Part shown: one piece after another, positions 4,090 through 55,442 of the stretch
How the letters are laid out: every line of letters starts with the position of its first letter
Numbering within the stretch: position 1 is the first letter of the stretch
Source: Acorus gramineus
Taxonomy: Eukaryota; Streptophyta; Magnoliopsida; Acorales; Acoraceae
DNA: 64,000 nucleotides
NCBI GenBank assembly: GCA_030737835.1
Contig: CM060848.1
Span: 19,197,309 to 19,261,308 of the forward strand
Direction of reading: 5' to 3'
Notes under the pieces: generated by a model
The model's database searches: none
What the model was told of the DNA's origin: nothing
The model's input: the letters and a program-made list of their open reading frames with translations, nothing else
Program-made: the position numbers and the translations under genes

Positions 4090-5736
4090 TCACAGCCCCA
4101 ATTCACCAAAAAACTCTTCTTCCCTTCCACATTTATGCTTCACTGCGGCATCCATCTCAACCCACCCCACCAGCTCCTTTGCCTTCATCGCCTCCCTCTC
4201 CCAATCCGTCCCGCAAATCACCGCCACCACCGACACCACGCACGCCATCTGCGCTGAGAGCAGCCCGAGCACCAGCCCCACAAACCCGAACCCGAACCCG
4301 AAACCCAACACCACTGCCACGGGCGCCCCGATTAGGTAGAACGAGCAGAGGTTGATGACCGCGCCGATCGACGGCCTCGCGCTTCCCCGCAGGACTCCGC
4401 ACCCCGTCGTCTGCGGGCAGTTCGCGAGCTCGCACAGCCCCACAAGCGGCAGCACCGCCAGCGTGAGCTCGAGCACCTCCTTGTCTTTGGTGAAGACACC
4501 CACCCAAGCTTCCTTTCCCAGGGTGGTCAGCATCAGCCCGAGGCACGCAGAGAGGAACGCCAGCCCCATCGCTACCGCTGCCGCGAGCCGGGCCCGTGCG
4601 GGCCGGCCCGCGCCGAGCTCGTTCCCCACGCGGGCCGAGGTGGAGGAGGCGAGAGTGGCAGGCAGAGTGTACATGAGCGAGGTGGTCTGGATGACGATGG
4701 CGGAGGTCGCAAGCGCCACACGCGGGTTGCGTAGGTACCTGATGATGCAGAGAAGAATTTTTTTTTTGAATTTTTTTTTGAAATTTATCATTTTTATGTT
4801 AATTATTGCATTTGGTAAAGAAAAATATACAAAATAAAAAAAAAAAGATACTTTGATTATTTTTCAAGACTTTAACAGTTTTTCAAACTTTTTTTTATAA
4901 AAGTTAATTAAAATGATAAATATATATAATTTTTAAATATTTTAATAATATAAAAATAAATAGTATTTTTTTTTGATGATATATATGAAAAATTCATTAT
5001 TTTTATTTAAATAATTATTTTAAGATTTTATCATGTAATTATAAATTTTATCAATGGATTTAAAAATAAGTTTGTTAATCTCAAAATAATTATCTAAATT
5101 AAATATTTAAACATAAATAATCAAAACAACCATTTTTAATTTGCATCCGTACCCCGACATGATTGTCATGAGCTCGTACCACCACCACTCGAGGCAGACC
5201 GCGGCGCAGCTCGGCAACGCGAGGCGGAGAAGGGAAACCCACTCTCCGCCTGCGGTGGGCGGAGTCAATGACGTAAGGGGCGCGTAATTGGGCGGGTTGC
5301 GCGCGTACAAGGTGTAGCAGAGGAGGAGCGCGAGCGTGTTGAAGTTGGTGCAGAAGCCCGCGATGGCGACGCCGGGCACGCCGAGGCGGAGATGGAAGGC
5401 AAGAAAGGCAGTGATGGGGAGGTGGAGGAGCAGCGCGAGCAACGCGCACCACATCACGGGCCGGGGCGCGCACTTGCTGCGGAAGTAGACTCGTAGGGGG
5501 TGGAGGAAGCTGTTCGCGACGAGGTCGGGGACGGCGCACGCGCAGTACGAGCTCGCGACGCGCGCGACTTCCCTGTCTTGCTTGAGAGCGACCATGATGG
5601 GTTCGAGACTGACCCAAAGGAGGGATATGGGGGCGGAGGCGAGGAGGAGGAGGAGGATGGTGCGGCGGAGGGTGAGGGAGGCGAGGGCGGTGTTGCCGGA
5701 GCCGAAGGCCTGGCTGCAGAGGGGCTCCATGCCGGA

Positions 5737-5772
<36 letters not shown>

Positions 5773-6140
5773 GGTGAAGCCGACGGCGAGGGCTCCGGCG
5801 GCGAGTTCGAGGCTGCCGAGGCGGCCCATGCAGACGACGGAGACCATGCCGCGGAGGTAGCCCACGAGGTTGATGGCTGTGATGGGGAGGCCTATGTCTT
5901 TCATTGTCTCTAGCTCCTCCAATACCTTTTAATAAAAGTTGGTAGGCATTTCTATTTCAACATAAAAGTATAAAATAACAGAGATACAGAAAACAAAAAC
6001 CAATAAAAAAAAAGATTTGAAAGGTGGGTCTTTTTATAAAGTATATGTATTCGATTTTTTTGTTGATGATGTTGGTGTGATATAAGAGATCGTACCTCTG
6101 GCATTGTGGGATTGCTCTGTTTTTGGTCCTCTGTAACCAT
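4090..6140 (-). CDS. DTX56: MATE efflux transporter, DTX56/RHC1-like
   Basis: Three coding exons on the minus strand: 6140-6096, 5925-5153 and 4738-4090, with GT-AG junctions in frame, give 488 residues. The ATG at 6138-6140 opens a 15-residue first exon that splices onto VLEELETMKDIGLPIT. The protein has the MATE architecture of two six-helix halves. Visible signatures are MGRLGSLELAAGALAVGFTN, GMEPLCSQAFG, CLEWWWYE, RVGNELGAG and CPQTTGCGVLRGSARP. From memory these agree best with Arabidopsis DTX56 (RHC1, At4g22790), a membrane protein in guard-cell CO2 signalling. MATE proteins are usually H+-coupled exporters of organic cations or flavonoids; the substrate here is unknown. Coding DNA is very GC-rich while intron 2 (5152-4739) is almost pure AT. 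A helix in the second half reads GFGFGFGF, encoded by a hexanucleotide repeat near 4284. The subfamily call is strong; function is inferred. Confidence 0.92.
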
Positions 6141-27558: not shown

Positions 27559-30500
27559 CTATAGTTCTTCATCCGAGTCCTCAATGATCTGTGCCTTCTT
27601 TGCCATCTTGGTCTTGATAACCTCACCTTCGTCTGGTTCAGAATCTAGAGCAGCAATACCACCCTCACTAGAATCAGATAATATGCCTTCCCCGGGCTGC
27701 TTGTCTTCCTCCATATCTGATTGCCCACTTGATTCATTTTGAGATGCGGTAGAATTATCCTGGCTGGGCTCATGCTCAGGCATGTTCTCTGGCACGGTCA
27801 CTTTCTTTGGTTCCAGTATCTTGAAATCCCTTGCAGTGCTACGCTTTGCATGCCTCAACAGATTGACTTTAGTTAGCTTGCTAAGTTGAATGAGATATCT
27901 CTCATAATCCTCTATCTGGAACACCAATTCCGGGATGCATTTATTCTCTCTTTTGATCTTGCCAACAACTCCTCTACCCTGTGCATTGGCTTGTTGGTTC
28001 TGCATTGAAATATACCCTTAGCATAAAATTTTGCAAGTGTGGAATTAAGAGACTTGAAAACTTGGATTAAAGAGGTTACAGAGTATACATACATTCTGCA
28101 TGACAGCCACAAAGTTGTACAGGGGAGCTGTTAGTCTTTTGCAGGTTACTTCTGCAAGTCTCTGGAACTTTTGTCCTGGGTAAAGCTGTTTGTAGCCTTT
28201 AGGAGCAATGCAAAGTTTAGTCATTCGAGCCAAAAGCTTATAAAATCTCGTGGTTAATTTCAACAGCTGCTCTGCTTGAGGATCTGCAGATCAGAAATGT
28301 AGATCAAAGTTACTCAAATTAAAAAGCTAAAAGAGCTCTGAGAACTTCTACTAATGAAGCTTACCCTTGAGGCTCATCTCTGCAAAAGATGATAGCATGG
28401 TCACCAGTGCTTCTGACCTCGCATAAAGTGATTCTTCCAAGATTAGCACAGGTGGTTCTTCTCTGATTTCATCACTCTCTTCCAGGTCATTGATTATGTG
28501 ATTGGTGGTGGACAATGACTTCAATTTCAATAAAGCCCATTCTAAATCAACAATAATAGATTCTATCAACTGCAGTAACATTGAAGCGATTCTACTTGCC
28601 GTTGAATTATTTATAATGGGATAAATTTCTGAACTTTTTACGGGTTCATTGTCATCAGATCCAATAACTTTTAACAACTCCAAAGCGATTTCTTGTGCGA
28701 TGGCCAAGTCATTTGGAGGAGATGTTAGATATATGGAAAGTGATACCACACTTTGTGTGGCCCTTGGATTTTCTACTGTGGTGCTTCTACATATACGGAG
28801 AACCCAAGCTCCATGAAAGTTCCGTAGGTTGCGGGGCAGTTTATTCCCAATTGTCAATATGATATCAGAAAGAACCTGCAAAAGAAATGGCTGTTTTATT
28901 TCTAGTGTGACATATCAAGGAAGCAAAACAAGCAACTAGTGAGCTTAGGGTCATTTAAACCAGCATCTCAGGTTATGATCATAGTATTGATCATTCAATG
29001 ATACCCAAAATTGTACATAAAGGTGACCATGAATTTGACTACAGAGCATGCATGAGTCATGTAATGCACATAAGTGGACAAAACTCTGTTATTAGTAACA
29101 AAATTACTTGTCAAAAGAATAGCTATCAATACAGCAATACTAGTTACCTCAGCTTCACAGGAAAACGGTAATAGTTCAGATAGAAATGGCTGTAATATCT
29201 TTATGATTAGAAAATGCATATTTCTTGTACAATCATCATCTAGCACCACCCCTAGTTCATCATCACTGCCTTCAGTACCCTCGCCACTTTTTACCCATTC
29301 AGATGAGACCGTGGATATCAAACCCTCCATAAATTCAGCAAAATGAAGCCCACATGAAACGATCTTAATCAATTCATTCAAGCATGACAAGGCTAAATGA
29401 AGCTCCTCCCCCTTATTCTCTACACCTCTCCTACCCTTGGTTCCTTTCTTCTGCTGATCCTTCTTTGACTTTGAACCTGACTTGAGTGCCAGAACCAATT
29501 TAATTAAAGGAGGTCCGAATAGTTTGATATCTCCATAAAAAAGAGTCTTTAGTAGGTTTGTGTTTCCCATTGAAGGAAATGATTTTAACAGTTGAAGACA
29601 AGACTTCAATACAAAGTGCATCATCTTCGAAGAATGAGTTGATGCCTTGCATGAAGATGTTTGGCTCTGATTCTGTGATGATTTCTGAGTACCAGGAACA
29701 TCTATATTGCTTAGCTTCAGTGAAATCATTAATAACTGACGAATACTGGAAGCTGCCAAGAAAGGTCTTCTCGATAAAGATATTTTTTGGTCAGCTCGTG
29801 AGCACACTTTGGAGTTGCTGTTGGACTTATCTAGGATATCCTGAACAGTATTTCTTAAAGACCCCTTCTTTGAACTGCTCCTCACTTTATTGATGCATGA
29901 TTCTTTTTCCACAAAGTCATGCAAGTCAACAAACTCCAAAAGTTCTTTTTCTAGGCCATTTTTTTCCAAGTCTGCTGCCTTCTCGAGTTCTGTAGTGATC
30001 ACATTTATGAGAACCTCAAGAATTCCAGACAAAATCCAGGCAAGGTAACCGGCATTATCTCCTTCACCGCCTCCATCTTGACTCAGAGCTAAAATGTCTG
30101 ATGAAAAATGAAGGGAATTAATATAAAAGGCAGGATGTTAGTTGAAATGTACAGAAATGCAATTTAAAATCTCCGCAAACCTTCTCGGCTGGCATCTCTA
30201 AAATATCTTCGTATCTTCATTAAAGCATTTGAGAATGCTTTACCAGAAGAAACTTTTCCTGGCTTCAGTATTTTAAACAATTGCAATTATACACCTATTA
30301 CATATTGATAAGCTTATTGCAAAATATAGGAGGGACATCTGAGATACCTCAATATCTTGTGAAAGAGAAAATCCAAAGCATGCCCATGGATATTCTGATG
30401 AGCGGTCTGATTTACAATGTTGTTGAAGAAGAAGGATCCAAGAAACACAGTATAATAAACAATCCAGAGGTTCTTCAATGGAAATTCTTCCGCTCTCTGA

Positions 30501-33500
30501 TCTAACACAGCCTCTTAATGTAAGTGGAGAGCTTGCTTCCTGCACATGTATGCTTCAGTCTTGCATTTAAGATTGCACGCAATGTGACAGATGAAAATAT
30601 TTCCATTTAAAATGGCAAATAAGATTCTATGAACTATCTAACATGAACATGGTAACAAAGATTATGATAAAAACCTAAATAAAACGCTTCATAAACCATT
30701 GCCAGTCCATTCCATATGAAATATGTCCTCTCCAAAGTTGGATTCAAACTATAGAGTAATATTAACATAAGTAACTGTAGTCCACAGCATCTTATGTTCT
30801 AGAAATGATCCATGCCTGCATACTAAAAATTCCAGGCCAAACTTTATGAGCAGAGAATTCCAAGAGTAAATTGGATAGAACAATTTATACAGAATGGGGA
30901 GTAACATACTTCTCAAATATTTGAGTTCCTAACAAGGAAGTATAAGGCATTATGTGAGGACATCTATAGTCCAAATAACATTAGCACACAGACGAGATGG
31001 TCTAATTTATGAGAATTCTCTTGTGTGCCCAAATGACTTCTAAATTCAGATTATTTGGACAGGAACTTCAGCAGATCAAGTATAATGGTCACATAATTGC
31101 TTCCAGAGCATGAAGGATCAGAACAGAAGTCAGATTAAACAAAAAAAAATGATAAAGAAACTAACATGTATACAGGCGTATGATACACTACATTCAATAT
31201 AGAGGCATTCATGCTACATAATTGGCAGACAACGGTATATATTGTTTTTACAAGAAACATATACAACAAAAAAGATCAGATCCATGAGATGCACTCATCT
31301 CATATCCATCCAACATATTGATGTAAATATTATTCTATAAATCACATGGAAATTTTTAAACGAAATTGTACTAAGTTACCTCTTTGTAGAAGTGAAGAAA
31401 GTGAGACCAGAGAAGATCAAACACAAGTCCTGCAGCAAACGGGTCCAATACCACAAGTTTCAAGAGGCCATGGTACAAGACCTCTTTGGCTTTCGCCTGG
31501 TCAAGAAACCCCATATATAAGACAGGATATTGCAGATTAAAAATTAATATAGGCACCTAGTGAGAACAGCTTACCTGCTGAGAGAGACATCTTCGGAGCA
31601 AACCACTTAGTTCGTGAAAAAGACTTCTCTCTCCCATGCTAGGTATATCAGTTTGCTGGCTGGAACTTGCCTGGCTAGATGATTCTCTCATAGAAATAGG
31701 GGCAGTTTTCTTGGATTTGCTTTCCAACAAAATCAGCTCAATAATTGCATTGGTAGCGGCAAGATGAACTGCATCTTCTTTTCTAAACATGGCCTTGCGC
31801 ATAACTAAGATGGTGTAATCCTATAGAATATTGAAAAGCAATCTATTTAATACCACATTTAACATAAACTTTCAGTCATATCAGGACATGCAGTTACCAA
31901 ATCGATTATACCTGGAGGTCACGGCTGAATTTCATTAGAGGCAGAAGGGAAGTAACGAGGGCCATTGCAGTTTTATCGTGCATCACAGTGAAATAATCCA
32001 ACAATTCCTTCAACCGCGCAACATATTCGAGCATAGGATAGGTATAATTTCGAACCAGACATTCAAGAAGCCTTTAAAAAAAAGGATCGGACTAGTAATT
32101 TTCAAATTCCCACAAAAAATGAATTATAGACATTAAGCAGGGATGTGACAGAGATTACCTCATAATTGGAATGCTTTGTTGAGGCTTTAAAGAAAGGATA
32201 CGAAATCTGCACTGCTGTATTATCTGCGGAGGATCAAAAATGTGAATTTCAAGTGTTGGAAAAAATGCTACATGGCCTCGAAAAAACTTATCAGAAAACA
32301 AGAAAATCAAAGAGATGATATTAATAGCAAGGCATCTCTCTTATGGTACCCACTATATCAATGAAAATAACAATTTTAAGTCTAAGAACATCTTTTATTG
32401 GAATTGGCATGCATGTTATGGGGTGTGCTGCTTGGCATGGAAAGCAGATATCATGTGAAAATGAAACAAACCCATTTATTATTATATATATTCAACCAAT
32501 CAAGTCATCAAGTGATGCAATCACACTCACAACTCTTTAACTCATCACACACCAAATCATCTATCTAGAAAAAGGCCATCAAGTCATTACTGCACATAAT
32601 TTTAACACTCATACTTGCGTTCGAGGGGCTTTACAAATGCCAAAAACATCAAACTGACCTCATTCCGTGCCATGTCATGAACATCGAACAAAATCTTTAG
32701 TATTTGAATTCCAAGCTCTTCGATTCCCATCAACCCTTCAGAGACATCAAACTTCTCTATGTCGTCACCACCCGCAGATTCTAAGAGAACAAACCCCAAC
32801 TGAACTATGCTGGGAATCACATGTTCCCTTCCACAATTGCTTTCATTGACCTAACAAATTTAACACCAATAAAAACAAACCCAAAAAAGCTATATGTAAA
32901 CCAAATTCAATTCTGATCGACAAGTTAAAAAAGATTACAGCTTTCATCAAAGCTTTCTCCACTCTTTTCGCACTCTGCAAACATTCCTCTTTCAAACAAT
33001 CCGGCAACCACTTACAATTCCTACAAACGTTTTACAATAAGCCATCAAAATAGTCCCTAAAATCAAGATATTCTAAAAAAGTTATACCTTGCATTCTTGT
33101 AATCTCGATAAGAAACCACCACGGTCGATTTAAGCACCCCAATCGCACCCTCATTGAACCTCCGAACCCTAGCAACCGAAAGCAGCACCGCAGCAGCGAA
33201 ATGATTAAGCACGCGAGGATCCGATCGGACGATCCCCAGCACCTCCCGCCCCAACGAAGGGTCCTGCTTCACCGCGAAGTTCACGTGGAGGAGCACCGTC
33301 CCCTCCACCTGCCTCACGACCGCCGCGCTCGCCGACGCCGCCCCCTTCTTCCCCCTCCCGAAGAATCCCAAAACCCCTCCGACGGCGGCTCTCCTCCCGA
33401 ACCCCTTCGACGCGAGCAGCAACAGCTGGTAGACCACCGACGGGAGGTCCTGAAGGTCCACCTCGCCCAGCCCGCGAAACACCCTCTCCAGGAACTCATC

Positions 33501-34061
33501 GGCCCGGGACCGGACCGAGACGGGGAAGTCGCGGAGGAGGGAGACGAACTTGACGAGGACCGCCTTCGACCAGTGGAGGGAGAGGATCCGATCGATGGTG
33601 TGGTTCGCGGTGTCGGCCGTGGATAGATCGAGGAGGCGGGGGAGGAGATCGAGGGGCTGGGATTCGTCGAGGGTGGAGATGGAGGGGAGATCGGAGAGGA
33701 TGTGATCGAGGAGGGGAGGGAAGTGGTCGGGGGGGAGGCGGTGGAGGTGGAGGGAGAAGAGGTGGAGGGAGGCGGAGGAGTGGCGGTCGGGGAGGCGGAG
33801 GTAGGAGAGGAGGAGGGAGGAGAGGAGGGAGGAGAGGGAGGGGGAGAGAGGGGTTTGGGAGATGAGGGAGAGGAGGGAGGAGATGTAGGCGGAGACGGAG
33901 GCGGAGGACGAGAGGGAGTGGAGGAGGGAGAGGAGGGCGGAGTGGGGGAGGGTGGAGGGTAAGGGGGAGTTCGAGCGAGCGAGGGTGAGTATATCATCGA
34001 GGGTTAGGGGCGGCGGAGGGTGGTGGGAAAGGGGAGAGGAGGAGGACGTGGCGGCGGTCAT
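27559..34061 (-). CDS. FANCI: Fanconi anaemia group I protein (FANCI) homologue
   Basis: Thirteen minus-strand exons: 34061-33088, 33020-32939, 32850-32659, 32223-32159, 32071-31912, 31820-31575, 31496-31380, 30539-30348, 30262-30181, 30097-29148, 28875-28365, 28283-28093 and 27999-27559. All keep frame and give 1400 residues (human FANCI 1328). FANCI pairs with FANCD2 and is monoubiquitinated on chromatin during interstrand crosslink repair. Evidence includes [16 protein letters not shown] (human VVQSIVQLGFILLDS), LVMRKAMF with Lys500 at the likely human K523 site, an SQ cluster just after it, [12 protein letters not shown], and the C-terminal [19 protein letters not shown] and STARDFKI. The protein ends in an acidic tail. 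Start chosen at 34059-34061 (MTAATSSSS), because a TATA-like box at about 34190 would put transcription start below the upstream in-frame ATG at 34172. Exon 1 is GC-rich with Ser/Pro/Leu runs; exon 9 (82 nt) is the least certain. Confidence 0.93.
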
Positions 34062-34130
34062 GGCGGCGGCGGCGGCGGTGGCGGGGGAAGTGTGTTTTGG
34101 AAGTTGGAGGGAAAGGGATTTGTTTTTCGG

Positions 34131-34138
34131 GCGGGAAA
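34131..34138 (-). promoter_or_regulatory. E2F-type site at FANCI promoter/leader
   Basis: The minus strand reads TTTCCCGC within CATTTCCCGCCCGAAAAAC, the classic E2F consensus (TTTSSCGC), about 70-77 bp upstream of the chosen ATG. E2F drives S-phase transcription of replication and repair genes in plants, so it fits the role of FANCI. Binding is inferred from the motif only. Confidence 0.6.
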
Positions 34139-34187
34139 TGATTTTTTTTTTTTTTTCCGTGCTTCTGCGCATCTTCAATCCAAGCCG

Positions 34188-34200
34188 TGAAATATAAAAG
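34188..34200 (-). promoter_or_regulatory. TATA-like box of FANCI
   Basis: The minus strand reads CCTTTTATATTTCACGG about 130 bp upstream of the chosen start codon. A transcription start about 30 bp downstream would fall near 34160. Confidence 0.4.
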
Positions 34201-35887
34201 GTTGCCTCGGAGGAAATTTATGTTTTGATGGTGTTGCACTTCAATCATCACTCTCTATTTTTTTTTATTATTTTAAAATTATATAATGTTATATAAAAAT
34301 TCATTAATAAATATTATTATTATTATTAATCTACTTATATAAAAATTATATCATTGAAAATATCTCTTTCCAACTATAGTATTTTTTGTTAAAAATAGAT
34401 TAGCGGATTTAAATATACATTAGATTGAATTAATTAGTGTATGAAGTAAAAAATCAAAAATGTGATTTGGAGTGGCTTTCAAATTTGGAGGGTCAAATCC
34501 AAATCTCTAAATTTGGAGACCCTTCAAATTTAGAGATGGATATAAAATGTGGTTTGAGCACATCACCCTACCCTAATTTAGAGATATGGAATATAATTGA
34601 AGCAAACCATGCTCCTTTAATTATTAAAATAGTAAACATCATCTTATATATTTTTATGAAAAATGTGTATAATTTATAATGTATTGCGTGGACTTCGTTG
34701 GAAACATAGAAAATAGCTAAAGAGGCATGTACGTGGACTGTCCACCTGTCATAGCTAGAAATAACCATTTTGAAGACGTGCCATTATTATTTTATAAGAC
34801 GTAATATGTTATATGATAAGATGAGCTCATAATGGTACAATGTCTGCATTGTTTTATTAAACATCTAGATTTCATTAAACTGGGTTGATTTTCAATGCTT
34901 TGACACGTAGACAAAGATTTGTAAATTATGAAAAAATAATTTGACATATAACTCTTTTAAACACATAAGAGTTGATGACAAGTAATTTAACATGTGAACC
35001 TCTTTTATATCAAAGGATTAGATTGGAAGAAATAATATAATTCCAGAAAACCTAGAATACAAATATCAGTTTATTCTCACTTATTCCGACATAGTTATAC
35101 CTATCTATTCCAATCAAACAAATGGGTTTTGGGGCTTATTCCTCTCTATTCCTCCATATTCTCCCCCAGTTCCTATATCCAAACAGGGCAAGGGCATCAA
35201 CTGAACTTTAATTTTGTTCTGAAATTCTTCGTAGTCCAGTGTCATCCTTATGGATCCAATAATCCAATATACTATTAACATTCCATTTTCATGTCCTTTC
35301 TGTATAAATTAGAGCAAGATCCTAACTCCTAACATGCGCCCTTCTTGTCCCATTGTCCTCCCCCCCCCCCTCCCCCAAAAGACCATGACTCTAATCTACT
35401 CAACCTTGCTAGATATACAAGTTTTCTGAAATTAGTTTTGCATTTGACTGTTGAGCTTACATTCAAGTCATAATTAGTTTGAGATATCATAGCCTGGAGC
35501 CTCCAAATGCCAGTGAGGCATCACAATTTGATGTTTGTATTGCAAATGATTTGGCAAAATGATACTAACAAGAAGCTATCTTCATCAGTGTTTTGAGTTT
35601 GAAGTTTAAATACCTCTGATCAAGGCCTAAGCAATATTGGTCTGATCTGATGGAACATATCCAATGAGTAACATTGGGTGGTGGTCTATTAATGTCACAC
35701 CTGTAAAAGTAAATTTTGCGTTTAGGTTGTCACAGGCAAGGCTAAGCCAGACCCTGATGTATAGAAATATATATGTCAGAGAAATCAAGGAGCAGAGCAG
35801 GCATTGCCGCTGATTACAATGTTTGTCACACATGCCTTCTTTTCTCTTTCTGTCACACACAATTTAATTTGTTAACATTAATTGTAT

Positions 35888-40269: not shown

Positions 40270-41717
40270 GAAACCACGATCCTGATGTACTGTAACACTT
40301 TTTAAGGAAATCGCAGTAGACTGTCTACCTTTTACCACAAAAAAAAAAATAAGGCATTCAAATTTTTATTTTTTTTTTCGCGCGCACGCGTTTTGTAGTT
40401 GTGTTATATGAACAATATGAAATCTCATGTGATTGAGATTAGATTTGGTTCATGGAAGGATTGCTCTGAATTTCTCGAGCAAAATGGCATGAAAATATAG
40501 GATTGTGATAATTATATAAAATAATTGTTAGTTTTATATATGTTGTGCATTCGGACTAACTAGTCTTTGGTTGGATCCCACAACTAATTAGGTAGTGTGT
40601 AGAAATTGTGTTTGAAAAAAAATTGTATTATCTTTCAGAAAATATATTTTTACTAGATTGATAAAAATATTTTCTTATAATTAAAATTATTTGTTACTTT
40701 CTTCAAAGTCTTTAGAGGCTTCTGTAAATGAGTTTGGATAGAATATGATTTCTGTAAATTAAAAAAGTGTTCAAATCCATTCCAACCGTTGGAACAAGTT
40801 TTCTTTTGTTGAATAAAACTTAACCAATGCATATATTTCAACCCTTTATAAATGAAAAAATTAGTTTGTAGTTATAAATGAAAAAGAAAATTACAAGTAT
40901 TTTCCTGTGAACCTAATTTCAAAAGAAGAGTTCAAGTGAAAAACTCATTTTAAAATTTTCCAAACATCACCATAGAATAAAAATAAAAAATTTCCGATCA
41001 ATTACAAATAAATGTAAAAATAGTGTAGGACCTACAAATACAATATAAGGTTTTCTTTACAAAATAAGGCAATGTTTAATGTTTTGTTTATAGGGAACCT
41101 TTCGTCATTCATTAAGTGTTGCCCGAATTTGTCTGTGCTAATTTTGTTGTGAAAAACAATTGTGAAAGGCATTATTCATATTATACATCCCTACAATTAT
41201 TTATTGCATTGAAAAACTTTTCACCTATATAAGTTGGACTGTAAATAAAAAAAAAAAAAAATGAAGGTGCGAAATAAAAAGTAAATATTTATCAGGAGAT
41301 CCCGACCATCCGATCTTAAATCAGACAACGTTGGATTTATAGACCCTATTAATTATAACATTGTGTAAAGAAAATCTTTGGTAAGAAAGGTAATGTAGAT
41401 TTGGTCTCTACATTATAGATACTGCTCCTATATGAAAGATTTTCTTTTTGTTTTGCTTTTATTACTTTCTTAATTTGTAACGATTGATTTAAAAAACATA
41501 TATTGCTTGTAAGCTCTCAAAGTTGAAGAAAATAAATTTATTTATAAAACAAAACTTCAAGAACTAAAGTTTCCCCTACACAAGGTGATTCATGTCCCTG
41601 CTCAATCGCTCTATAGATTATGTTTATGTGTTTTATTTGATTGTGTATCTTTTTCGATGTGATTATAATACAGGTTGATCATATTCGCGAAGAATCATAT
41701 CGTATCGAGCTACTAAT
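40270..41717. other. intergenic DNA between SWEET and CKI1-like gene
   Basis: AT-rich, no gene seen. A short CG-alternating stretch (CGCGCGCACGCG) lies at 40379-40390, within the probable SWEET 3' region. Confidence 0.5.
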
Positions 41718-44700
41718 ATGGGAAGGAAGTGCTCTTTGAAATCTTTGCAGGCCTTTCAATTCATTCTTTTTTTGGTGAATCCTATTATCTTTGCTTTGCT
41801 TTCCATTGAATCAATTTTTTTTTAATCTGTTCTTAATTTTTCTTAGATATGTAATGCCCACACACATTGATACTTGTTAAGTTCTTTCTATGCGATTAGT
41901 TGAAATCGCAAAACAATAAACTATATTTTCCTTTTTGAATGATTATTTCGCGCGGGAAGAGGCATCGACGTATCTTAGTATTAATTTAACATGCGTCCTT
42001 GCGATATAAGATGAATCTATATGTAAGATCTCCTTGCATTAACTGAAATGTATTTTCTAGAATTTTCGGCACAATATTTGATGCTCACTCTCTTCTACTT
42101 CTAGTAAGGTTTTCTCATGCTAAGTCTCAACTTCACTTCTAGCTCTATTTCAAACCTTTTCATATCTGACTACCACAATCAACTAGCCTTGCAAGATATA
42201 TGTAATTTTTCAGTCATGATTCAGTGACTCAAAATTTGATGTTTGTTATTTTTATTTGATTGGTAAAATTTGATTAATTTGGTGACCTTGATTTTGGATC
42301 AACTATTAGAAAACATCATTCTATTACTTTTAGGAGAGGTTGATTATCCTGTATTACTAACATGGTTTATACACATGTTTATGGGAATTTATCATGGTAC
42401 ATACAAAGGCACTTCTAGTTTTTCTCCAATGCATTCAGCCTTTTCACATAAATGAAAAAAAAATAGATTTATGCTTTATCAGGAGTTCATGTTCACAGAG
42501 TGAGAATTCAAGAACTCCCTTTGAAAATAAACTTGTAGTACATTAAACAAAGCTTTTGAGTTTGTTTATGATTGAAAGTTCTTTATTTGTGGCCAATTGT
42601 AAGTATATTGGTATGTTGTCATCAGAAGTTGTAAGTTTTTTGATCTATATAAAGCTCAAATTTTCTTGCCCTGACTGATTTTTGATGATTTATGACAAGA
42701 AAAATAAGTCAATGTGAATGTTACATTTTAATTAACAATCATGGTTGATGGTTCCATATTTTTTTATCATGCATGGATGGATTGATGCTTGAGTTGTTTT
42801 TTTTTTTTTTTTAAGACAATCATGTCAGGAGAAGATTCATGTGAAACCGAATGTGATTATTTTCAAGTTCTGTTTTTAATGATGAATATATTATTGGATC
42901 TAGTCTTTTTGATGCATGAATTTCAAGTGAACAAAGTCTTCTGCATTTTATTCTACTGAATTATTGTTTTTTTTTTCCTGAGATAATGTAGAAATTATAT
43001 TTCAAACATTAAAAGCATCAAGATCCATAGTCTGAAATGGAAAAAAAGAGACGGGACTAAATGACAAAGAAGAAAAGCAAAAACAAAAACCGAAAATCTG
43101 AACAATGAGAATAGGAATACAGAATTATTGTTACTACTAACAACAAGGTTTAAACAATTCAGTCATTGTTATTACACTTAATTAATGATAATGTCTACTT
43201 TGCTAAAAAAAAAAAAAGGGTTTAAAGCTTTACACTGTTTGGACGCCTATAAAACATCATAGAATTTAATGAAATACATACCAGCATTTCAACACATACT
43301 ATTTATCCTGATAAGGCTCTTTGATGAAATAACATATCATTTTCAACACAAAATATTAGGTGAACCTCTGTTTATTGGAGTTGTTTGCAACATAAAACCA
43401 AGTCCACTTATCATTCTGTAATGTTTTTTTTTTCTTGTCCCATGAAATGAAATCTGATGCTAACCACAGTTGTATATGGGGGACTTGAGTGCAGGCACTG
43501 GCAGCACTCACTGTCACAGTGATCTTGATATGGACTTCAGTGGTGAAACATGCCGAACATCACATTCAAGAAGCTCTCCATAAAACTAGTATTCAATTGC
43601 TTACAAGCAACATTGATAAGCAGGTATATGTGAATATAACTAACATTTGTTTCTTATATATAGCATTAATACGATATGATTCAATGCAGACGATGAAATA
43701 CACAAGACTTTCATGCGATCTCGACCATGATCCGGTCGCAGAGAACAAAACATATGAGTTTAGCTGTTCTTCAATTGACAGTGTTGGAGATCAATTGGTA
43801 AGCTTTAGTACCAAATGACAGCTTTTCTGAAAAAAGTTGATTGAGAGCAGCTTTTACAAAACTAATTGTTTGTATTGCAGAATTTGGTATTGGCTTTCCC
43901 TACAAAGGATCCAAGGCAGATTATACATGAATTGAACAGGGCGGCGTGGGGGTTGATCGCGCCAATGCTGGTGCTTCTGTGTCTTGTGACATTCGTAGGC
44001 GTAAACGTGTTCTTCAAAGGTCACTGGAGGGAGATGGCGCTGCGTGCGAGCCTCGTCAAGCAGAAGGAGGCAACTCAACAGGCAGAGAGGAAGGCCGTGA
44101 ACAAGAGCATCGCATTCGCTAATGCGAGTCACGACGTGCGAACCTTGCTTGCGGCCATCTCCGGTCTCATTGAGCTCTGCCGCAAGGACATTGGATTGCA
44201 GGCTGAACTGGAGGAAAGTCTGAAGCAGATGGAGAGCTGCGCAACTGACTTAATGGGTGAGTTTGGCTTAGACAATTTTGATTGTCTGAGAACTACTGAT
44301 GGCTTCTGACATGTTTGAAACTAATTGTCGAACTGATTCTACTTCATTATCAGTTTCATATGATTGGTTCCAAACAATATTTTTTTATATATAACTTTAT
44401 TTTTATTTCTTTTTTATTTTTGAATTTCGGCAGTCATACAAAATGGCTTTTATGAAAAATTGCTATTGAAAATTGATTCCAAACATGATTTAAGTCCCCT
44501 AGTTGATTATTCATTTGAAAAATCCATTCTCCGATAATCAGTTCAGTACAAGTGTTTCTAAAATTTGGCATTTGATTTCAGATTTTGTTCTTCATGTATT
44601 AGAAGTCAATAAAAACTGTTTTTCTGAAAAAGATGGTTGAGAATAGTTTTTCCATATACGCTTTATTTTAATCAATTTAGAACATAAACTGCTTCCCAAA

Positions 44701-46799
44701 TTTGGTTTCAAACAAAGCCTAAGCAAGCTGAGTATTCATGTGCTCAGGGATACTGAATGCGGTATTAGACGCGAGCAAATTGGAGGCAGGAAAGACAACA
44801 CTCAACGAGGATGAGTTCAACATAGCACAAGTTCTCGAAGAGGTGGTCGACATGTTCCATGTCGTCGGTTTCCAAAAGGGACTGGAGCTTATTTTAGATC
44901 CCTGTGACGGTTCAATCTTGAAATGGTCCCTTGTGAAAGGAGACTGCAGGAGGCTCAAGCAGATCATGTGGAACCTCCTCAACAACGCCGTGAAATTCAC
45001 CTCCGTAGGGCACATTCTGGTGCGCGCGAGGGCTAAAAAGCCGACTTTGGAGAACCAAATCCACTCCAATGCCAGCCACAACTTCCGCCTCTTTGACCGG
45101 CGTAGCTGGATGAGTAAGATGTTCAGCAAGGGCGACGGCGAGACAGGTTCCACCCGTGCTGTGAAGAGCGATCCGGATTTAGTTGAGTTCGTGATCGAGG
45201 TAGACGACACGGGGTCAGGAATCCCAAAGGAGAAGAAGAAGTCTGTGTTCGAAAACTTCGTACAGATCAAGAAGTCTGGGTATGATGGACCTGAAGGCAC
45301 TGGTCTGGGACTCGGCCTCGTTCAATCTTATGTGAGTATTCTTCGATCAGTAGTAACTAGTAATTCTTGTTGTATGATCTACGCGTGACTGTTGTAATTG
45401 TTTCAGGTACGACTAATGGGTGGAGACATTAGCATAGTTGATAAAGAGCCTGGCGAAGAAGGCACGTGCTTTCGATTCAATGTCTTTCTCAGAATGAAAG
45501 AAACTCAAAGCAGCCATACCCAGTCCGAAATCGAGTCCCAGCAAAGGTTCAGAACCACACCACCCAATAATCCCCCAAAGCTGGAGAAAATCCATGCTGT
45601 TCTCTTCGTCCGGGGAGAAGAGACGAGGAGGATATCGCGCGACTGGCTTAGCAGACTTGGAGTGAAAGTATGGCCTGTCACTCGATCTGAGCAACTCGTT
45701 CAAATCCTCGACGACATGAAGAGGAAGCTGTCCTCGAAGTCGAAGTCGGTGCCGCTCTCCCCTGATGTCTACTCAAGCAGGTCGGCGTCTGGAAACTCAC
45801 ACACCATTGATGTAGAAGAAGAGTCGACAAGCTCCATCGATGTGGCCCAACATTCTTCACCGTTGATGGGTGCAATCACTACAGACCGGCACAAAGCATA
45901 CAGATCAAAAGGCGCGGTGAGGTATTTGGTGATACTCGTTGACATGAGTTGCAGTTCTTTTGCCGAGATGTGTTCGATCCTCGCCAACTTCACGAAGGGT
46001 CTCCCGAGTTCCAGGTACAGGATCGTCTGGATAGCAGCGCAGAACACTCCGAGAGCGGACTTGAAGAGCCTGAGAGACCAACAAGTGCTGTGCGACCTCA
46101 TGCTGAAAGGGCCTTTCCATGGCTCGCGGCTAGACGCGGTCCTGAGGCTTCTTCGAGAGTTTGGGAGAACGGTCGAGCGGAGGATTGAAACAGAACCAGT
46201 CACCAAACCGAGTTCATCAAAACCAGCGCCGCCTAAACCTGATTTGAAAGATGCGAAGCCACTCAGCGGAATGACTATGTTGGTCGCGGAGGATCACATG
46301 GTGATGCAAAAACTGACCCGGGCTAAGCTGTCCAGCCTTGGCGCGGACACCGTGTTCTGTGAGAATGGGGAGGAGACCTTAAAGTCAGTCCAGGAGGCTC
46401 TTCGGAGGATGCCTGAAGCTGATCAAGATGGGACTTCGAAGAGGTTCCCTTATGATGCCATTCTCATGGACTGCCAGGTAATGAATATAGGATAAATTTT
46501 GTAATCCAGAATCTTTAATAACACCAACCCCCACATGGTATAGTTTGATAACATCTCACTTTTTGTATTCTTATATTATGTGTTTCCAGATGCCTGTGAT
46601 GGATGGATTTGAAGCGGCACGACTGATACGGCTCGAGGAGAAAGGCTATGGCATGCACATACCAATCATAGCACTGACCGGGCACGCATCGAATGAGGAA
46701 TCAACAAAGATCTACCAGGCTGGGATGGATCACCACCTTGTAAAGCCCCTCCAGGTAGATCAATTACTGGAGGCTATCAGAAGTACCAGGACGCATTGA
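41718..46799 (+). CDS. CKI1: CKI1-type hybrid histidine kinase with reduced ectodomain
   Basis: Seven exons, 41718-41774 (tentative), 43495-43623, 43690-43797, 43881-44256, 44748-45331, 45407-46477 and 46590-46799, give 844 residues; Arabidopsis CKI1 has about 1122. Tentative exon 1 plus exon 2 make helix 1 (FILFLALAALTVTVILIW). Helix 2 is about 121-143. The kinase has ANASHDVR with phospho-acceptor His182, N box MWNLLNNAVKFT, G1 VDDTGSGIP, F VFENFVQ and G2 EGTGLGLGL. The receiver has AEDH, phospho-acceptor Asp773 in LMDCQMPVMDG and a conserved Lys in LVKPL. CKI1 feeds phosphate to AHP proteins and type-B response regulators without cytokinin, acting in female gametophyte and vascular development. 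Only about 80 residues lie between the two helices, where the family has about 300. An in-frame TGA at 43486 shows that exon 2 needs an upstream exon; the one chosen fits frame, donor and hydrophobicity. Confidence 0.88.
42960..43100 (-). mobile_element. possible LINE tail in CKI1-like intron 1
   Basis: A T-run at 42967-42976 is followed on the plus strand by CCTGAGATAATGTAG and A-rich DNA. Read on the minus strand it looks like the end of a pyrimidine-rich 3' UTR plus poly(A), as in the other LINE tails here. No target duplication was found. Confidence 0.25.
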
Positions 46800-49957: not shown

Positions 49958-52408
49958 TCAGCTCACATCCTTGAGCCTCTTGATCAAAGTATCCAACGAC
50001 TTCTTCTTCGGGTTTGGCTTCATCCCCCTCGTCCCAAATGTGCTAAACAGCCTGTCCGAAGAATCCCTAAACTTCTCGGAGATCGTGACCACCTTCTTAT
50101 AATCCAGCTTGTCATAGTTCTTCCCTCGGATAACCGGGTTCAGGAAACTCTCTGGGTGGCTGCTCATGAGCAGGTTGACAAGCTGCCTTGCCTCAGCCAG
50201 CGCACCCCTCAGCTGCCCAGCCACCGCCTCCGTATCCCCATCATCCTCTACGAATAGGTGCGCTTGGTTATCCGCAAAAGACTCAAACAGCCGAATATCT
50301 GTATCAAACCCCGTGACGGCATTCGCATTGAACCTTTTCAAAGAATCCGACAAGAACACCCCCACGATGTTCTCCGATATGTGGGAGAGAATCCCCAGGA
50401 GGACCCTGTTGAGAACCTGCACTGGAAGGATCTGCTGCGCTGTGGATACAAGCGTCTCGAGGTAGATGATGACCTCATTGGCGTACTCGTTCCCGTACTG
50501 CGGGGGATCGTCACCCATCCAATTAACGTTCTCCGTCAGGAGCATGAAATCGTCCACCTTCGTTCGCAGCAATCCCGCAAGGAGCTCCTCAGCTGCATCC
50601 CGTGACTTCTTCAGCGGGAACACCCGCCTCCGCCCCGCCCCACCCCGCTCCACCACCCTCGACGGGATCCCAGAGAGCTGCGCGGCGTGCTTGAAGAAGA
50701 AGTCGCAGGCGCGCTCGAGCGCGGCCATGTTCGCCGCCACCTGCATCGCCTGCGAGACCACGAGCGCCGCCGTCGCGAGGAACCTCAGCAGCGCCCCGTC
50801 GAGGACCTCGCCCAACAGGCGGTCGAGGTACCTCCTCACGACGTCGTAGAAGTCAAGCTGGCCGCCATGGGACATGAAGCTGACGGAGTCCACGATGAAC
50901 GAGCGGACGATGCGGCAGCAGCCGGGGACGGTGGAGGAGAATGGCGCGACGTAAGGGAACGCGGGGACGATGTCGGACGTCTGGAGCTGGAACGCAAGCA
51001 CGTTCATCGAGTACTCGTACTCCTTCTTCATGAGCATCTGCTCGAACTTGTCGGCGGCGAGGACCTCGGCGATCTGCGCGCGGCAGTCGGAGAGGAGGAG
51101 CTCGTGGTACTTGTCGCGGTGCTTGTTGAGGACGTCGAGGAGCGGCTCGACGAGGTAGCCGTAGCGGCGGAGAGTCACGCCGAGGAGGCTCACGTAGTCC
51201 TTGATCAGCAGGAGATGGTTCGCGGTCTGCATTCGAGAGAATTGGTCTTCGAGGACCGAGCACATCTTCGCCACCGCCGTCTCCCAGAGGTTGTCGACGT
51301 CGGATCTGGAGATCAGACCCCCTCCGGTGCGAAGGATCCTGTCCTCGACGATGAAGAACCCCACGATCTGCGCGAAGAAGGTCTGGTGCGACTCGAGGAA
51401 GGGCGTCATCGAGGAGACCTGGAAATCCGAGGTCAACTGGAGCTTCCGGTTCTCGATGTAGTAGGCCTTGAAGCGGTCTTGCAAGCCGAGCGTCTGGTGT
51501 ATGTGGTACGCCCTGTAGAGAGGGGTCAGATCGAACCCTAGCTTCTCCTTCAAGTCGCCGTGGTCGGAGACGACGTCGTTGACGGTCCCGATCTCCTCGT
51601 CGTCGTCCTCCTGGAGCGAGTACGTGACGCAGTCCCGGAGGCCGGTGCTGACCCGGCTCTGCTCCTCCGCCTGCCGCTGCTTGGTGCGGAGGTCCTCCTC
51701 CCTCTGCCGAGCGGCGGACGCCTGGCCGATGGCGATCTGACCGAGATTCCGGCTGGCGACGCGGATCTGGACGAGCCAGTCGCCGAACTCCTTGGCGATC
51801 CGCCGCTCGGCGTGGGAGCGGACGGCGGGGATGGTGCGGTCGAGCATCCGGCGGAGGGTGCAGGAGGGGATGGCGGGGAGGTGGTCGCGCTCGATGGCAT
51901 CTACGGATCGGAGGGCCATGTAGAGGTTGCCGTCGGCGAGGTGCTCGTTGGCGCGCGCGCAGGCCTCGAGAGCGCGGACGCAGGCGCGGACGGCGTCGGA
52001 GGCGAGAGAGGCGTTGCGGGCGACGACGCGGGCCTCGACGAAGGCGTCGAGGGAGGAGAGGAGGGGGGAGGCGACGGAGCGGAGGAGGGAGTTGGAGTCG
52101 GAGAGGGAGGACTTGAGGGAGTCGACGTCGGAGAGGAGGGAGCGGAGGTCATCGACGGCGCGGATGAAGTCCTGGTAGTGGGCCTTGCAGACCTCCTCGA
52201 TCTCGGATTCCTTGGAGCGGGAGAAGGCGCGGAGGGAGTGGAGGAGGGAGTCGGGCTTGCCGGAGGAGAAGGCCTTGCGGACGAAGGGGCCGAGGTCGTC
52301 GCCGTTGCAGATGGCGGAGGAGATGAGGATGTGGTCGTGCTTGTCGCCGGAGGAGGGATGGATCGGATCGGGACGGTGGTGGGGGGTGGGGACGATTCGG
52401 CGAGTCAT
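49958..52408 (-). CDS. SEC15B: exocyst subunit SEC15B
   Basis: A single uninterrupted frame of 816 residues starts at the ATG 52406-52408. The frame opens 15 codons earlier only through a TTG, so the ATG is taken. SEC15 links the Rab GTPase on secretory vesicles to the octameric exocyst that tethers them to the plasma membrane. Diagnostic blocks, remembered from Arabidopsis SEC15B (At4g02350), are ILISSAICNGDDLGPFVRKA, SKESEIEEVCKAHYQDFI, GFDLTPLYRAYHIHQTL, FFIVEDRILRTGGGLIS, DQFSRMQTANHLLLIKDYVS, KFEQMLMKKEYEYSMNVL, CRIVRSFIVDSVSFMSHGGQ and the end SLDTLIKRLKDVS. The N-terminal third contains helical, coiled-coil-prone sequence, and the C-terminal half holds the Sec15 helical-bundle domain. 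No intron is needed, as in SEC15B relatives. The coding strand is highly GC-rich, which creates long antisense ORFs. Confidence 0.97.
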   Translation of the reverse strand: MTRRIVPTPHHRPDPIHPSSGDKHDHILISSAICNGDDLGPFVRKAFSSGKPDSLLHSLRAFSRSKESEIEEVCKAHYQDFIRAVDDLRSLLSDVDSLKSSLSDSNSLLRSVASPLLSSLDAFVEARVVARNASLASDAVRACVRALEACARANEHLADGNLYMALRSVDAIERDHLPAIPSCTLRRMLDRTIPAVRSHAERRIAKEFGDWLVQIRVASRNLGQIAIGQASAARQREEDLRTKQRQAEEQSRVSTGLRDCVTYSLQEDDDEEIGTVNDVVSDHGDLKEKLGFDLTPLYRAYHIHQTLGLQDRFKAYYIENRKLQLTSDFQVSSMTPFLESHQTFFAQIVGFFIVEDRILRTGGGLISRSDVDNLWETAVAKMCSVLEDQFSRMQTANHLLLIKDYVSLLGVTLRRYGYLVEPLLDVLNKHRDKYHELLLSDCRAQIAEVLAADKFEQMLMKKEYEYSMNVLAFQLQTSDIVPAFPYVAPFSSTVPGCCRIVRSFIVDSVSFMSHGGQLDFYDVVRRYLDRLLGEVLDGALLRFLATAALVVSQAMQVAANMAALERACDFFFKHAAQLSGIPSRVVERGGAGRRRVFPLKKSRDAAEELLAGLLRTKVDDFMLLTENVNWMGDDPPQYGNEYANEVIIYLETLVSTAQQILPVQVLNRVLLGILSHISENIVGVFLSDSLKRFNANAVTGFDTDIRLFESFADNQAHLFVEDDGDTEAVAGQLRGALAEARQLVNLLMSSHPESFLNPVIRGKNYDKLDYKKVVTISEKFRDSSDRLFSTFGTRGMKPNPKKKSLDTLIKRLKDVS

Positions 52409-54932
52409 CGTGGACGGTTGGATTTTTTTGCGGGGGACGAATCGGACGGTCAAATTGGAGTCTTGGACGGTTTTATTTTTTACATGGTTTGGTGAGGGTG
52501 ATGGAGTGGGAGGACTTGGAAGACGGGAGGACTTATGGGGATAGATTTGGTGGAGTGAGAGAGGAGGTTGGTAATGGGGAGTGTAAACCGGACACCTAAT
52601 GTGAGGGTTGCATACTGTGGACGCTTGTTTTTGTTACGAGTGCTTTTATACTCAAAATTTTTTTTTTATTTTTTTTAGTATTAAAACACAGTCCTATATA
52701 CTACATTAGAAATTCAATTAAACATATAATCTTCTTAGATACTTTATATATCTCATTAATGTTTTTCTTACATTTATTAAAAATGGGTTCATTCAACTTG
52801 AAATTGAATGATATGTACTTTTTATCAAAATTTATACCTCATTAGATGATGTTTGCTATTTTACAAAAAATAAAAATATATGAGATCTCAGCTTTGGTTG
52901 GTGAATATGACACTGTCTAACATTTTCATTTTGTTATTGGTAATAGAGGAGTGGGCTGGATCTGTGAGATGTAGCTGCCCATTTTGATCAGTTCTCATTT
53001 CATGAAGGAAAATAATATGTCCAGTTCCATTTACAGTTCACATCGTTCTTTTTTTAAAGATCATACACTTTACAAGAAGTAAATGTTGTTTTGCTAATAA
53101 AATATCAAATCTTTTCAATAAAATATTCATCATGGCATTTGTTTTGCTAAATATCAGATTCATTAAAATCCATACAACCCTTAAAAATTCTATTTTATTC
53201 AATTTTAAATCATATAATATATGTATTTCTTTCAATAAAATATCATGTATAACATAATGGCATGCATTAATAGGATACTCAAATTAGATGTTCTTAACAT
53301 TTTTTTATTAAAAACTATGAATCTAACATTTTAAAAATGAGATCTTTTTTTTTTTAATTATAACATGAATTCACAAATATAAATTTAAATTCACACTATA
53401 TTTATATAAAAAAAAAGTAAATTTTTTTTAAGCATTAACACAAATGGAATAAAAAAAAATGAGGCAGATAAAAAAGACACAAATGAAATCCACGTCTAAA
53501 ATCACACAATTAAATTTTAAAAAATCAGAAAATCTAACTTAAAAACATGACCCAAATAAGGAACAAATAGAAGTAGGATTAACTAGCAAAAGAAATTTTA
53601 AAAAAAAAAAGCCCCGAATGAGACCTAGATCTAAAATCCCAAAATCAAGAAAAGAAAAATATTAAATCAAACTGCAAAAACAGATTAATAAACCAAAAAA
53701 TAAAGAGAAAGATCATTGAAAGAGGAATACTTGCAAAAGAGATAATGTAAAATGAGATAAAGAGATTGAGAGTTAGGGAAGAGAGAGAGAGACCGATTGA
53801 TTGTTTTTTATGTGAAAAAGTAACCCCCGCGTGCAAATAAATGTTGTTACAGATGAAAACACATAGGTTGGTTGTGATTTTGTTTACCCCATAAAACGGT
53901 GTAAATGAGATCATTGTGCATTTATTTGATACCTCTATTTATCCTAACCAAACATTTATTTTTGTTTGACCCAGTGCAAATGAGAACTTACTCCCATTTG
54001 CATCTTATCCAAACATGCTCTTAGGCTCCGTTTGAATCTGCAATAGGACAGCTTTGGCAAGGAACTTCACGTAATGTCATCGCGGAGAAAAATAACATCT
54101 ACATTTCAATACTAAAATCAGCGTTTAAAGACAAAAAGTTCCCGGTGTTTAAAACTCCCCATAAACAATTAATGCTTTTCTATTGTGTCATGCTTTCTTA
54201 AACGCGGAGTTTTCTACGACACACCCAAACGCATAATTGATTCCTAAACGAAAAACATGTCAAAATAGACTCCTAAATGAGTCTCCACAATGTTTTAGAT
54301 GGATTTTATTACACAATACACTGATATGGAACACATACATTATGATAGTGCATTAAACGATACTACAAATAGGCTGAGCACCCTAAAAAGAAGAGGGGGA
54401 CATATTTAAATATTAAAAATGTTAGACTCAATCATTTTTACTATTTAAAACGCAGACTATATATATTTTTTTTCAAATAATAAACATCATCGAACGAAGT
54501 ATATACTTTAATGAAAAATATGCATCACTTTATTTTAAAATGAATGATCTCATTTTTAATAAATTAAAAAATAAAATATATATTTGACCCAACAATACAT
54601 ATGTTCATTAAATTTTTATATTATATTATAAATATGAATGGCTGTGTGTAAAATCTCCCCTGAATATTCAAGGTGCCCCAAACTTTTTCTTTGATCTATA
54701 GTGATCTTGGCCTGTTTAGTCTGAGCCATTAATTGCCTGGGCCCCACCGACAAACCAAAACTTACCCGCATTTCCTTCCCCAATCTGACCCGGGAGACGA
54801 ACGGATACAGCCACCACTCACTCACGAAGGACACGTGTCATCATCCAAAGAACCCTCCCCAAAATCCCCCATATAGAAACAGAAACAGAGATCCCAAAAC
54901 AATACCTCCCAAAACTATCGAATTTCGATCAA
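52409..54932. other. intergenic DNA between SEC15B and DUF538 (divergent)
   Basis: Holds the SEC15B promoter (first about 200 bp, GC-moderate) and then AT-rich DNA with copies of the dispersed repeat at about 52620-52930 and 54300-54650. A MITE-like segment at about 54022-54250 has ends GGCTCCGTTTGAATCTG and CACCCAAACGCATAATT. No gene is seen. Confidence 0.5.
54830..54842 (+). promoter_or_regulatory. G-box/ABRE upstream of DUF538 gene
   Basis: GACACGTGTCATC, with the palindromic CACGTG core, lies about 95 bp upstream of the DUF538 start codon. This is the usual bZIP/ABF or bHLH site and suggests response to ABA, light or stress. Confidence 0.6.
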
Positions 54933-55442
54933 ATGGAGAACCAAATCACCTTCGCATCTCTCCTCCTTCTCCTCCTCCTAATCCCCACCGAATCGACGGC
55001 ATCGGCACCATCCCTCACCGAATCGACGGTCTACGACCTCCTCCAGACCTACAACTTCCCGATCGGGCTCCTCCCCAAGGGGATCACCGACTACGACCTC
55101 GACCCGGCGACGGGGAAGTTCACCGTCCGCCTCAACAGCACCTGCGGCTTCGCTTTGCAGGGGACCTCGTACAGCCTCCGGTACCGGACGACCGTCACCG
55201 GCAAGATCAGCCGGAACCGGATCAGTGACCTGACGGGGGTCAACGTGAAGGTTTTGTTCTTCTGGCTGAACGTGGTGGAGGTCGAGAGGGACGGGGACTA
55301 CCTTGATCTGTCGGTGGGGATAGCGTCGGCGGAGTTCGGGGTCGAGAACTTCGCCGAGTGTCCCACGTGCGGGTGCGGGTTCGACTGTGTGGGTCGGGGA
55401 GTCGTCGACGATCGTTTGAGGAGGGGAAGCTTTTTGATGTGA
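54933..55442 (+). CDS. DUF538 family secreted protein
   Basis: A single exon of 169 residues starts at ATG 54933. Residues 1-24 form a signal peptide (LLLLLLLIP core, then small residues). The rest is the DUF538 domain: YDLLQTYNFPIGLLPKGI, YDLDPATGKF, STCGFALQG, GKISRNRISDLTGVNVKV, WLNVVEV and the Cys-rich end ECPTCGCGFDC. The length is usual for the family (about 150-180). The fold is a beta-rich, BPI/lipocalin-like domain of unsettled function; members respond to stress and some occur at the cell wall. The closest relatives I recall are At4g02370 and At4g02360, which lie next to SEC15B and SAG21 in Arabidopsis. The same neighbours occur here. A G-box lies in the promoter. Coding DNA is GC-rich. 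Confidence 0.93.
   Translation: MENQITFASLLLLLLLIPTESTASAPSLTESTVYDLLQTYNFPIGLLPKGITDYDLDPATGKFTVRLNSTCGFALQGTSYSLRYRTTVTGKISRNRISDLTGVNVKVLFFWLNVVEVERDGDYLDLSVGIASAEFGVENFAECPTCGCGFDCVGRGVVDDRLRRGSFLM

Follow-up and report, generated by a model that had tools for sequence, protein, structure and literature searches.

The gene described here lies in a 64-kb stretch of Acorus gramineus DNA (the window, by which the whole stretch analysed is meant) and is predicted to encode a hybrid histidine kinase of the CKI1 type, with the kinase and the receiver in place and with a space between its two membrane helices that is too small for the usual ectodomain. The reading preferred by us, to which we give about an even chance, is that of a working CKI1 orthologue whose sensor would have been removed by a frame-keeping deletion and which would signal without an external ligand.

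In Arabidopsis, CKI1 sets the identity of the cell that gives rise to the seed endosperm. The precise input signal of this kinase is given as unknown in the available text of one review, the table of which lists "Cytokinins?" (PMC6944256). A natural CKI1 that has shed most of its outer domain, with the rest intact and no other copy found, would offer a ready test of the role of this domain in central-cell fate.

Gene model

The gene consists of seven coding exons on the + strand, between 41718 and 46799, and its spliced product has 844 residues and ends in a stop codon. In the spliced model all the exon borders are of the GT-AG type and the phases are consistent throughout the gene. The original prediction had placed the gene at 43495..44256; the feature seen there is real, but the gene extends much further. 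Its components up to the stop codon are as follows:

Exon 1, 41718..41774, + strand: start codon (ATG) and first 19 residues, running into helix 1; GT donor, phase 0 into exon 2
Exon 2, 43495..43623, + strand: remainder of transmembrane helix 1 and about 29 residues beyond
Intron 2, 43624..43689, + strand: 66 bp, GT-AG, GC 0.24, stop-free, in frame, between two phase-0 exons
Exon 3, 43690..43797, + strand: 36 residues of extracellular remnant
Intron 3, 43798..43880, + strand: 83 bp
Exon 4, 43881..44256, + strand: juxtamembrane segment, transmembrane helix 2 and start of HisKA, the His being residue 182
Exon 5, 44748..45331, + strand: remaining HisKA and the N, G1, F and G2 boxes
Exon 6, 45407..46477, + strand: end of HATPase_c, linker, and receiver domain through the Asp at residue 773
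Exon 7, 46590..46799, + strand: remaining receiver domain and stop codon

By a codon score for which exons 5-7 of the same gene and the adjacent Sec15 frame served as training set, the whole of exon 4 reaches +0.44, and windows in exons 4-7 go up to +1.05. Exons 2 (-0.20) and 3 (-0.15) both lie above -0.41, the 95th percentile for intron 66-mers, exon 1 (-0.39) is barely over it, and intron 2, at -0.76 per codon, is intron-like. The score backs the exons modestly, because of the origin of its training set and because an alternative frame of exon 3 comes close behind (-0.19 against -0.15). The gene model is least certain in exon 1, which contributes 19 residues. The length of intron 2 is divisible by three and no stop is found in it; its retention would therefore still give an intact protein, with only 22 additional residues. 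Within intron 4 (44257-44747), positions ~245-468 belong to a dispersed repeat that occurs in at least 39 other places of the genome with 69-80% identity, as judged from the best 40 of 127 candidates, self included.

Domains and relationship to CKI1

HisKA, HATPase_c and receiver domains were each found above the Pfam cut-off in the 844-residue protein, and a CHASE domain is absent from its Pfam matches, which sets it apart from the CHASE cytokinin receptors. Two membrane helices are predicted, the hydropathy windows above 1.6 spanning residues 7-39 and 116-146. The H, N, G1, F and G2 boxes are present, as are the Asp, Thr and Lys of the receiver, the acidic pair of which is E-D instead of D-D. 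The kinase His, the N/G1/F/G2 boxes and the receiver Asp, described as retained in the original prediction, have thus all been located by motif.

As regards the identity of the kinase, the receiver matches the PDB entry of CKI1 (3mm4) with 97.7 bits, compared with 47.6 and 47.5 bits for the isolated receivers of histidine kinase 4 and 31.5 bits for histidine kinase 5 (4euk). The top PDB match of the whole protein is not CKI1 but 7p8e (131.9 bits in total, 93.2 in the kinase stretch and 29.7 in the receiver stretch); the CKI1 entries in the PDB match list are receiver constructs only, so that for the kinase part the comparison is limited to a provisional Arabidopsis CKI1 sequence. In this sequence (1122 aa), 160 receiver residues are identical to 3mm4, a check that covers the receiver only. 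Against it, the Acorus gramineus protein shows 35% identity over 857 aligned columns, linker included (E 1e-148), and exon 4 shows 47% identity over 101 residues. By these alignments the gene is closer to CKI1 than to histidine kinases 4 and 5, the other named plant hybrid kinases in the comparison. The protein is a variant of the CKI1 clade and not a typical member, since the large extracellular domain of about 300 residues is missing.

The space between the helices

The hydropathy windows are separated by 76 residues, and the distance is 85 residues when the helix cores are set at ~11-33 and 119-144, in agreement with the ~80 residues originally estimated between helix 1 (exon 2) and helix 2 (exon 4). 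By the same window rule, about 307 residues presumably lie between the helices of Arabidopsis CKI1, as counted in the provisional sequence. In the DNA, the cores delimit 43537-43940, that is, 404 bp, 149 bp of which are intron. The earlier remark that no hidden exon fits into the introns of 66 and 83 bp is consistent with this distance, with the GT-AG borders and with the matching phases.

This lack of room is a stronger argument than the homology searches, which are insensitive. The provisional CKI1 ectodomain gave a best score of 20.4 bits against the 64-kb window, below the median best of 30 shuffles (22.3), and against the genome its sole match was exon 4 of the same gene. The sensitivity of the translated search is low: even exon 2 of the gene studied here goes undetected when the window is searched with the N-terminus of the provisional CKI1 sequence. 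A diverged ectodomain could escape an Arabidopsis-based search of this kind, and exon 1 is weakly supported, both of which favour the idea that the gene model is wrong and that the ectodomain resides in unrecognised exons. We give this idea very little credence, since the ectodomain has to sit between the helices, where no room exists; moreover, in 40300-43480 no + strand frame is longer than 62 residues and no 30-codon window scores above -0.22.

The residues that are left have been compared with both ends of the CKI1 ectodomain. Exon 3, read on into the beginning of exon 4, aligns with the final stretch of the CKI1 ectodomain at a score that 2 of 2000 shuffles reach. Exons 1-2 align to the CKI1 N-terminus without gaps and nearly start to start, but the similarity is weak, the score being reached by 50 of 2000 shuffles, or by 72 of 2000 when the blocks were shuffled apart. 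Taken alone, neither exon 3 (944 of 2000 shuffles) nor the portion of exon 2 beyond the helix (1578 of 2000) can be told from shuffled sequence. By these alignments, the view that the ends were kept and the middle was lost is well supported on the side of helix 2 and no more than plausible on the side of helix 1, and intron 2 is possibly the scar where ectodomain-coding sequence is missing.

The remnant loop has two Cys and, at residue 81, one sequon for N-glycosylation, and its segment entering helix 2 is better conserved than any other outer part of the protein. These features would suit a loop of 76-85 residues that serves as a small sensor or partner-binding module, the kinase being re-wired and not blind; dimerisation or a partner in the membrane could still be sensed by the residues that follow helix 1 and by those that lead into helix 2. 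We regard this as unlikely, as a Pfam search of the loop up to E 10 gave no family and its length is less than one third of that in Arabidopsis. In the provisional CKI1 ectodomain, too, no Pfam domain lies above the cut-off.

The proposed deletion and the quality of the assembly

A genome search with the junction (43600-43720), up to an E value of 1, gave no match besides the junction itself. A repeat-mediated deletion was considered and rejected, there being no tandem repeat at 38-48 kb and no second genome match of the junction. An AT-rich repeat of 27 nt partly overlaps intron 2 and has a copy in intron 4 (78%), but was not counted as evidence of deletion, and the dispersed repeat of intron 4 does not lie at the junction.

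The shortfall is restricted to one place, as would be expected if the assembly had dropped at least ~0.7 kb of real ectodomain sequence between 43623 and 43690. Such an artefact is very improbable, given that the 64-kb window contains no N, that tandem repeats and further genome matches are absent as described, and that the join yields an in-phase GT-AG intron.

Copy number in the genome

A search for a second full-length CKI1, proposed together with the original prediction, has been carried out in the 398.6 Mb assembly, and none was found among the best candidates scored. With a query of 672 residues (exons 4-6 of the 844 residues), three of the ten matches are the same gene and the other seven are kinase pieces with 26-36% identity. 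With the N-terminal part as query, the same gene accounts for four of the six matches, and the remaining two have E values of 0.93 and 9.4. As regards other species, the text available from one study gives three CKI1 genes each in Populus and Prunus and one each in Arabidopsis, soybean and rice (PMC3866579), and two CKI1 genes are reported for Medicago in the source excerpt.

The alternative of a decaying paralogue, raised in the original prediction, has become less likely with this result. A neutral frame of 2.5 kb should soon gain a disabling change; the frame is intact and the copy is single, and function is therefore favoured over old decay. A recent loss-of-function allele or early pseudogene, with a new and perhaps heterozygous deletion and a frame whose intactness reflects youth only, would be compatible with the single copy represented in the assembly. 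It is nonetheless a rather improbable explanation, because the frame, the splice sites and the catalytic residues are all intact, because no second CKI1 was found to cover the loss, and because Arabidopsis cki1 mutants are described as female-gametophyte lethal in the available text of PMC7402358.

Other genes in the window and in the assembly

On the - strand of the window, the frames at 28351-28914 and 33063-34217 match the FANCI solenoid and helical domains and represent a homologue of Fanconi anaemia group I, one open frame at 49958-52633 (about 890 residues) encodes the exocyst subunit Sec15, and two MatE-domain frames at 4090-4863 and 5107-5928 correspond to a MATE transporter. On the + strand, a DUF538 protein is encoded at 54789-55442.

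Elsewhere in the genome, five phytochrome loci (L024-L028) were observed. L024 is taken by us to be PHYC, L025 has PHYA as its best match, with 1206 bits to the entries named phytochrome A and 1138 bits to 8isk, probably a maize protein, and L026 and L027 have PHYB, one of this PHYB-like pair being diverged; L027 had been considered as PHYE, an assignment since dropped. L028 is somewhat PHYE-like, with 50.6% to a provisional Arabidopsis PHYE sequence; its values for the other four phytochromes, of which two are partial sequences, are 41-49%. This resemblance to PHYE is a weak hint at a plant other than a monocot. Ten fragments of rbcL are present in the assembly, none longer than 166 residues. 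Two of them (L029 and L030, in G000 C10 at ~4.67 and 4.98 Mb) have equal scores, 166 residues and 91% identity and lie ~312 kb apart on a single contig; the assembly thus includes DNA of plastid type, which may be duplicated.

Proposed mechanism

For the working CKI1 orthologue that we prefer, an internal deletion would have taken out the extracellular (or lumenal) sensor, kept the frame and left an intron of 66 bp between two phase-0 exons. The original claim that the sensor was lost while the output stayed can be followed in so far as a CKI1-type kinase with its sensor missing and its output intact is found; the loss as an event is inferred by us from one provisional Arabidopsis sequence and from published lengths. 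The two helices would anchor the protein and HisKA should mediate dimerisation, and phosphate should be relayed from His 182 to Asp 773 and then to phosphotransfer proteins. Having no more than ~85 residues outside, the kinase would be blind to whatever ligand the ectodomain might recognise, and expression, localisation and the balance of kinase and phosphatase activities would determine its output.

The deletion of a sensor can lock a histidine kinase on or off. A version with both helices, kinase and receiver would be expected to retain the output and to lose any contribution of the ectodomain. Constitutive activity is suggested here by analogy, because Arabidopsis CKI1 is already reported to be ligand-independent: the available text of PMC6518804 describes a constitutive activation of the phosphorelay by CKI1 in protoplasts. 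The deletion as cause, the activity of the protein and a role in the female gametophyte would all form part of this proposal. Its furthest extension, which we hold to be possible and rather doubtful, is that the sole CKI1 of a flowering plant has had the loss of its sensor fixed and still specifies the central cell, needing no extracellular ligand. If this were true, CKI1 would be a positional output device and not a receptor.

Comparison with known histidine kinases

Among the titles and abstract openings listed in searches of an open-access collection, one of which listed 25 of its 46 papers, none reports a CKI1 lacking its ectodomain. Six published proteins have been compared, by length only, and four of the entries are far above 844 residues and two below. 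Medicago MtHK3 (1051 aa) and MtHK4 (1103 aa), labelled CKI1, barley HvHK1 (1088 aa), grouped with CKI1 and AHK1, and sorghum SbCKI1 (1138 aa) are placed by their authors, in the excerpts available, in the CKI1 or CKI1/AHK1 branch and are ~200-290 residues longer; for SbCKI1, the excerpt also has the same authors calling it an AHK1 orthologue and finding no conserved HisKA in it. Zizania ZlCKI1 (810 aa, with 0 predicted helices in the available part of PMC7690396) and sorghum SbHK1 (743 aa, called an AHK1 orthologue and not labelled CKI1 in the excerpt) are grass proteins of the CKI1/AHK1 branch with a similar or smaller length, and are either truncated gene models or real short forms. The length of ZlCKI1 raised the idea that short CKI1 proteins might be the rule in grasses. 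The long grass proteins HvHK1 and SbCKI1 speak against it, but SbHK1 is short too; as it is not labelled CKI1, it leaves our estimates unchanged.

CKI2/AHK5 resembles the Acorus gramineus protein in being a hybrid histidine kinase with no large extracellular domain, but it is described, in the source excerpt, as lacking a membrane helix, and two helices are predicted here; moreover, the AHK5 receiver (4euk) is the weakly matching one mentioned above.

A close likeness is seen to Arabidopsis CKI1, which also has two helices, HisKA, HATPase_c and a receiver and no CHASE domain, and whose His box, linker, pre-helix-2 segment and helix 2 align with the Acorus gramineus protein. The difference lies in the outer part, with ~307 residues between the helices in the provisional Arabidopsis sequence against 76-85 here, and in the overall length, 1122 against 844 residues.
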